Shown one piece after another: positions 297 to 1,621 of a stretch of DNA of 64,000 nt. Numbering within the stretch: the first letter of the stretch is position 1; every line of letters begins with the position of its first letter. The notes under the pieces are model-generated. The model was not told the DNA's origin, searched no databases, and saw only the letters and a program-made list of their open reading frames with translations. Source of the DNA: Pseudanabaena sp. PCC 7367 (GTDB taxonomy: Bacteria > Cyanobacteriota > Cyanobacteriia > Pseudanabaenales > Pseudanabaenaceae); contig NC_019701.1 of the NCBI RefSeq assembly GCF_000317065.1, forward strand, positions 4,474,001-4,538,000, in the 5' to 3' direction. The translations under genes and the position numbers were made by a program.

Positions 297-1621
297 TTAA
301 TCATGTTTAAGGTGGTGTAAGAGCTGGATTCCGGCTTCATGCACCGCTTTTTGTATTTCTAGCAGTGTTACTTGGTTGGCTTGAGCTAATTCAGCACAAT
401 CGGCATATTCTGGTTGCACAGTGATCGCGCGATCGCGCCAGGCAATCTTTACTCGCGCCTTGCCATATTTAGTCTCAACCCAGTGAATTTCCCTGGCCAG
501 GATTACCCGCTCTTGCAAACGGCGGCGAATACCGAGGGTGGTGGTTTCCGCAAACAAAATATCTTCACAGGCTGGCACATCTTTAAGCTGACAAAGCACC
601 GTTAGCAACAGACCAGAACGGGACTTTTTCATGCCGATCGATTGGGTGAAAACATCCAACGCCCCAACCGCTAATAATCGCTCCATCACATAGGCGATCA
701 CCTGGGGGCTGAGATCATCGATCTGGGTTTCCAGGATTGTAATTAATTCGGTTTGTCTGTTTCTGCTGGTGGTGGAATCAAGTTTTTTTTTGCTTGTTCT
801 AGTGAAGTATTTGGATTTATAGGATTAGAATCAGGATTAGTTTCCCCTAACCAGAGCCGCACAATATTGGGAATATCCAGATCGCGGGAACCAGCACCAA
901 TCCCAACCCTGGTGAGTTGCATTGCTGGTGGTTGGCCAAATCGATCGCACAGGGTCACGGCGATCGCTGCCCCAGTGGGGGTTACTAATTCTTTATTAAT
1001 GCCATTACTGAACACAGGCACTTGATGCATTTCCCATAATTTCAGCGTAGCGGGGGCGGGAACAGGCATCCGGCCATGATCGCAATTCACATAACCACCG
1101 CCAGTGGGCAGGGCAGAACAATAAATCTGGTTAACTCCTAGCCAATCGATCGCGGCACAGGTACAGACAATATCACCGATCGCATCCAGTGCGCCGACTT
1201 CGTGGAAATGGACTTGTTCTGGAGTAACGCCATGCACAGCAGCTTCGGCATTAGCTAAATTGCGGAATACGGACAGACTCCATTGGGCGGTGCGATCGCT
1301 CAGGTTGGCGGCTTTAATAATTTTTTCAATGTCAGCCAGGTGGCGATGTTTATGGTTAACCTGCGCTGCTGCTTGATCCTGCCCATGCCTGAAAGTACCC
1401 GGATCATCATGGCCATGCCCAGTAATTTCTACATAGACTTTGGTGGCTTCCTGACCACACTTTAAGACTTTCTCGCCCCAGATCTTAACTTCGGCGGCTA
1501 AGCCTAAGCGCTGGACAATTTCGTTTAAATAATCGATCGGTACGCCTGCACTAACTAATGCCCCTAAACACATGTCTCCGGCGATCCCGGCTGCACAATC
1601 GAAGTATGCGATCTTGGCCAT
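297..1621 (-). CDS. larC: LarC, nickel-pincer cofactor cyclometallase, in two frames joined by a -1 shift
   Basis: LarC inserts nickel into the pyridinium bis-thiocarboxylate precursor to complete the nickel-pincer cofactor of lactate racemase and relatives. The 5' part (1621 to 743, 292 aa) carries the N-terminal domain: FDCAAGIAGDM near residue 7, a His-rich stretch near 69-95, and HFHEVGALDAIGD near 136. The 3' part (to 297) carries ETQIDDLSPQVIAYVMERLL and GMKKSRSG. The two are in different frames. On the coding strand a run of nine A (783-791) reads GCA AAA AAA AAC in frame 0. A -1 slip there continues without a stop into the second part and gives about 440 residues, close to family length. 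LarC of Lactobacillus plantarum is known to be made by frameshifting from larC1 and larC2. A sequencing error or a real disruption cannot be excluded. No larA, larB or larE is in the window. Confidence 0.85.
783..791 (-). promoter_or_regulatory. A9 slippery run in larC, candidate -1 frameshift site
   Basis: Nine consecutive A on the coding strand contain the heptamers A-AAA-AAA and A-AAA-AAC in the frame-0 phase expected for -1 slippage. Frame 0 runs on for only about 13 codons to a TAA at 743-745. The -1 frame leads into the conserved LarC C-terminal domain. I see no convincing stimulatory hairpin or Shine-Dalgarno just around it. Transcriptional slippage on A9 is an equally good mechanism. 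Confidence 0.6.

Follow-up and report, generated by a model that had tools for sequence, protein, structure and literature searches.

The window, a 64,000-nt stretch of the Pseudanabaena sp. PCC 7367 genome, carries on its minus strand a larC gene that lies in two reading frames. Frame 0 extends from an ATG at 1621 to a TAA at 745–743 (743..1621) and specifies a LarC1-like product of 292 aa with the C-terminus ...LIPPPAETDKPN. The −1 frame of the same strand, preceded by a TAG at 827–825, is open stop to stop from 824 to the stop at 297 (297..824) and contains the LarC C-terminal domain (ITILETQIDDLS...; 321..743). PF01969 (Ni_insertion, LarC) matches frame 0 over profile positions 1–238 (residues 5–262, 309 bits) and the −1 frame over positions 237–374 (166 bits); the N and C parts are thus collinear over the full length of the profile, as expected of a member of the LarC family. 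The two open frames overlap by 79 nt (746..824), and within this overlap the coding strand has nine consecutive A's (A9, 783..791), in the frame-0 context ...CAA GCA AAA AAA AAC TTG..., which offers two in-phase heptamers, A_AAA_AAA (791–785) and A_AAA_AAC (788–782). The ORF reading and the profile matches bear out a preliminary description of this DNA, which had placed the two LarC domains in different frames overlapping at the A9 with these two heptamers in phase, and had the −1 frame free of stops to the end of the gene; only its span for the overlap, 743–820, was slightly short. There are 38 A9 runs on the two strands of the 4.886-Mb genome; by our own arithmetic this predicts ∼3 × 10⁻⁴ runs for the overlap's coding strand, so the presence of this run by chance is very unlikely. 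Ahead of the LarC C-domain, the −1 frame lacks any ATG, GTG, or TTG; its first start codon is a GTG 42 nt within the domain.

Two solved structures match the predicted protein. The window's C-domain matches that of PDB 6bwo, a LarC C-domain, and also the C part of PDB 12bi, a LarC chain of 414 residues whose N part matches frame 0; these matches fit a single-chain LarC enzyme. Its partners in the nickel-pincer nucleotide pathway, LarB (286 bits) and LarE (297 bits), are encoded in the same genome, and LarA (PF09861) has no match there. A LarA-type client in the genome was not taken as a defining feature of LarC. LarA was found in only three of 58 relatives. LarC, by contrast, is near-universal, and the cyanobacteria sampled for LarB and LarE have both, a pattern suggesting that the nickel-pincer cofactor is made there in the absence of the client known for it.

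We searched PF01969 in the 58 relatives, then in 390 genomes of the class, and then again in 39 doubtful genomes. Within the family, larC was detected in 37 genomes (one further genome, G022, gave no larC match), and in 34 of the 37, spanning seven genera, it is split at the identical domain junction; the remaining three, all of genus g2, have a single frame. Every larC split on an A-run, here and elsewhere, is in the −1 relation (33 of the 34 in the family), apart from the metagenome-assembled genome (MAG) G011, which has A8 and is +1. The run is A9 or A10 followed by an early frame-0 stop in 31 of the 34, and the two members of genus g7 have A_AAA_AAG instead. A conserved −1 overlap together with an in-phase X_XXY_YYZ, the pattern expected of a programmed −1 frameshift, is found in 33. 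The window's run (GCA AAA AAA AAC) is kept in relatives, most of which have AAA AAA AAA, with CAA AAA AAA ACA in G005 and CCA AAA AAG TAR in g7; outside the run, only 64% of larC lysine codons are AAA. In many species of genus g4 the −1 frame opens at the A-run, with the frame-0 stop only one to three codons beyond it, so that the overlap barely exceeds the run itself. Across eight closer pairs, dN/dS is 0.06–0.13 for the N part and 0.07–0.16 for the C part, values that indicate strong purifying selection on both halves. As judged from these comparisons, larC is one conserved split gene in which the −1 direction, the A-run, and the stop are all maintained. The preliminary description had named relatives with intact frames and no A-run as evidence against recoding; once relatives are aligned, the split, the run, and its direction prove to be kept, and such intact genes occur only in g2 and outside the family. 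Its proposal that this cyanobacterium uses the same recoding as other larC genes, or transcriptional slippage, is supported accordingly. Because larC of g2 has no split, the short product cannot be a requirement throughout the family.

Homopolymers are error-prone, and a few of the genes that we collected do look damaged: the larC of G011, with its A8, and those of G065, G252, and Richelia CSU_2_1 resemble ordinary errors or breaks, and the out-of-frame copies without an A-run (L163 in G065, L171 in G252, and L097) are probably of this kind. For the window, a sequencing or assembly error, or a pseudogene broken recently, is nevertheless scarcely credible, because the identical split recurs in 34 genomes of seven genera and dN/dS is low on both sides of it; family-wide conservation and dN/dS together rule out both explanations for the family. 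It is also very unlikely that LarC1 and LarC2 are separate proteins, the second translated independently, without any slip, from an internal or coupled start. Annotation pipelines would indeed report two genes, the LarC C-domain folds by itself (PDB 6bwo), and an ATG, GTG, or TTG does stand upstream of the C-domain in some relatives. However, no start codon precedes the conserved LETQxDD of the C-domain in the window, in g3 and g8, or in several g4 species, on which ground we reject an independent LarC2 start in the window, and separate translation would leave unexplained the A-run, the constant −1 relation, and single-chain homologs such as the 414-residue 12bi. The conserved split, the A-run and its −1 direction, and purifying selection on both halves instead lend good support to recoding, whether ribosomal or transcriptional, which on these sequence grounds we consider very probable.

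Outside the family, nearly all of the genomes checked have one full-length larC frame. Two have A9 and a −1 relation at the same larC junction: G298 (family f31) and G234 (family f13), whose larC matches Cf. Phormidesmis sp. LEGE 11477. The window's family is a single clade (97/90) in a LarC tree, with both of these placed outside, so that three origins of the A-run split are likely from the phylogeny. Genus g2, with its single frame, may have branched early or may have lost the split.

We also examined other long A-runs in the window's genome. Of 36 places with A9 or A10, four on the chromosome score as −1 joins: larC, folB-rnhA (L197), GT41-TPR (L211), and L204. As a baseline, ∼0.15% of window positions score as −1 joins. 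The folB-rnhA fusion is a single in-frame gene in most relatives, but is joined −1 at an A9 in the window's genome (L250, G000:C2:1941700-1943400) and in both g7 genomes (see also loci L247 and L248), and the first start codon of the split RNase H part is inside the RNase H domain. By its sequence, the fusion is recoded in the manner of larC. At L249 (G000:C2:3802800-3807800), a GT41 (O-GlcNAc-transferase-like) ORF is joined −1 at an A10 (CAA AAA AAA AAG TAG) to a TPR ORF that has no start codon for 168 codons. At L204 (G000:C2:2890472-2891680), an A9 (ctact-A9-taatg) is scored as linking two ORFs by −1, although they may simply be neighboring genes of the usual kind. Across the two replicons there are six identical IS630-like copies (L182, L183, L184, L199, L200, and L205), which are probably recently mobile given their identity; they have orfA joined to the DDE domain in the +1 relation at an A9 followed by C, and a −1 ribosomal slip cannot account for these joins. 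An A9 within a gene does not mark a frame join as a general rule: G026 has eight further A9 runs within intact ORFs and no join except larC. It is possible, but rather unlikely, that Pseudanabaenaceae regularly join domains by slippage on A9 runs (in larC throughout the family, in folB-rnhA of two genera, and in GT41-TPR and the IS630-like transposases here); if true, these free-living cyanobacteria would have recoding as a habit of the lineage and not one odd gene.

A strong hairpin directly follows the larC A-run in 12 species (G003, G010, G015, G017, G023, G024, G028, G029, G032, G034, G282, and G311; z from −5.6 to −11.6). The stems are long and near-perfect, and in seven of the 12, aligned over a 24-bp stem, 97% of positions pair and nine of the 24 pairs have changed on both sides, compared with 2.6 such compensatory pairs in shuffles and 0–1 in slid controls. 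We rejected the idea that the g4 hairpin is a dispersed repeat, since in the five genomes, of 13, that gave a match it is confined to larC. The hairpins begin 0–10 nt past the run, in part nearer than the usual 5- to 8-nt spacer, and on the opposite strand each hairpin plus T9 is shaped like an intrinsic terminator, so it may serve something other than stimulation of the ribosome. Downstream from the window's own run there is no stimulatory hairpin (z of 0.02 and −0.78), as is also the case in many relatives, and no Shine-Dalgarno-like stimulator was identified for larC.

Either the ribosome or RNA polymerase could do the slipping. In g7 the larC run has only six A's, as the classic A_AAA_AAG, and a heptamer with six A's is too short for efficient polymerase slippage. 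These heptamer-only sites in one genus, together with the −1 direction kept at the A-run larC splits (the A8 MAG excepted) and the hairpin right after the run in 12 species, favor −1 slippage by the ribosome, which from this comparative evidence is probably, by a modest degree of confidence, the main route by which larC is joined. Alternatively, RNA polymerase may slip on the A9, so that the share of mRNAs with 10 A's would put the C-domain in frame for a ribosome translating normally. The run length suits this: against a homopolymer criterion of about nine A's or T's, the window has A9, the same 31 split family members have A9 or A10, and g7 has A6. A9 is a documented slippage length, slipping in transcription in Thermus (dnaX), and the IS elements of Nostoc sp. 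PCC 7120 with A8–A10 have been proposed to use it (PMC1088944). The A8 of MAG G011 is what a run of heterogeneous length would permit. Against polymerase slippage as the general explanation, besides the short g7 run, the hairpins lie downstream from the run and would not yet have been made by the polymerase there, and the three larC origins, folB-rnhA, and GT41-TPR are all −1, although slippage in transcription would be expected to yield +1 designs too; overall we regard it as possible but the less probable account. For the window itself, where the A9 lacks a hairpin, transcriptional slippage competes strongly, because the frame required at the A9 of this genome's identical IS630-like copies is the other one, as would result from losing one A or gaining two in transcription. 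The caution first expressed over ribosomal versus transcriptional slippage was thus well placed: the family data lean toward the ribosome and do not decide the matter for the window.

Assuming mainly ribosomal slippage, tandem Lys-tRNAs would re-pair on A_AAA_AAR at the boundary between the two domains, aided in some species by the 3′ hairpin, and this programmed −1 slip would give the full product of ∼441 aa; polymerase slippage on the A9 may contribute somewhat in the window's genome. Ribosomes that do not slip would make the short LarC1, ending just past the N-terminal domain, and those that do would make full LarC, which inserts nickel in the synthesis of the nickel-pincer nucleotide. Both proteins are probably produced, and the short one probably serves some function.

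The larC1/larC2 genes of Lactobacillus plantarum have their N- and C-domains in two frames, and full LarC is made by frameshifting. The cyanobacterial gene shares this arrangement but differs in its long A9 and in a genome without detectable LarA. Like the A9 of Thermus thermophilus dnaX and the A8–A10 of the Nostoc sp. PCC 7120 IS elements, it has nine coding-strand A's that give access to alternative frames; unlike them, its direction is fixed at −1, and relatives have heptamer-only variants and downstream hairpins. With sites of the E. coli dnaX type it shares the identical A_AAA_AAG heptamer in g7, followed there by an immediate stop, and a 3′ hairpin in other species, except that the larC slip gives the longer product. 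Under the name larC we found no paper on frameshifting, the family having been reported as DUF111. Antonov et al. (2013; PMC3711429) list DUF111 (LarC) as a recoded family, and their passages on this cluster describe the same family as here, annotated as two genes, joined by frameshifting, and tested in E. coli (up to 39% frameshifting); those passages describe no family-wide conservation in cyanobacteria. The initial suggestion that few cyanobacteria are known to recode in this way therefore needs qualifying, given the transcriptional slippage proposed for the Nostoc A8–A10 elements (PMC1088944) and the frameshifting reported for DUF111 in those passages (PMC3711429).

Since recoding of DUF111 has, according to that account, already been shown experimentally (PMC3711429), larC here is a deeply conserved cyanobacterial addition to known recoding; what is new is that the slip is conserved through a family of cyanobacteria and recurs in a second gene. 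The slip design explains why larC, and folB-rnhA, are split or lost in the annotation of these genomes. Among cyanobacteria, larC would be a deeply conserved, chromosomal, and nonmobile example of poly-A recoding that apparently arose three times, and it permits a direct test of why LarC has repeatedly come under the control of a slip and of how slippage by the ribosome and by the polymerase divide the work.
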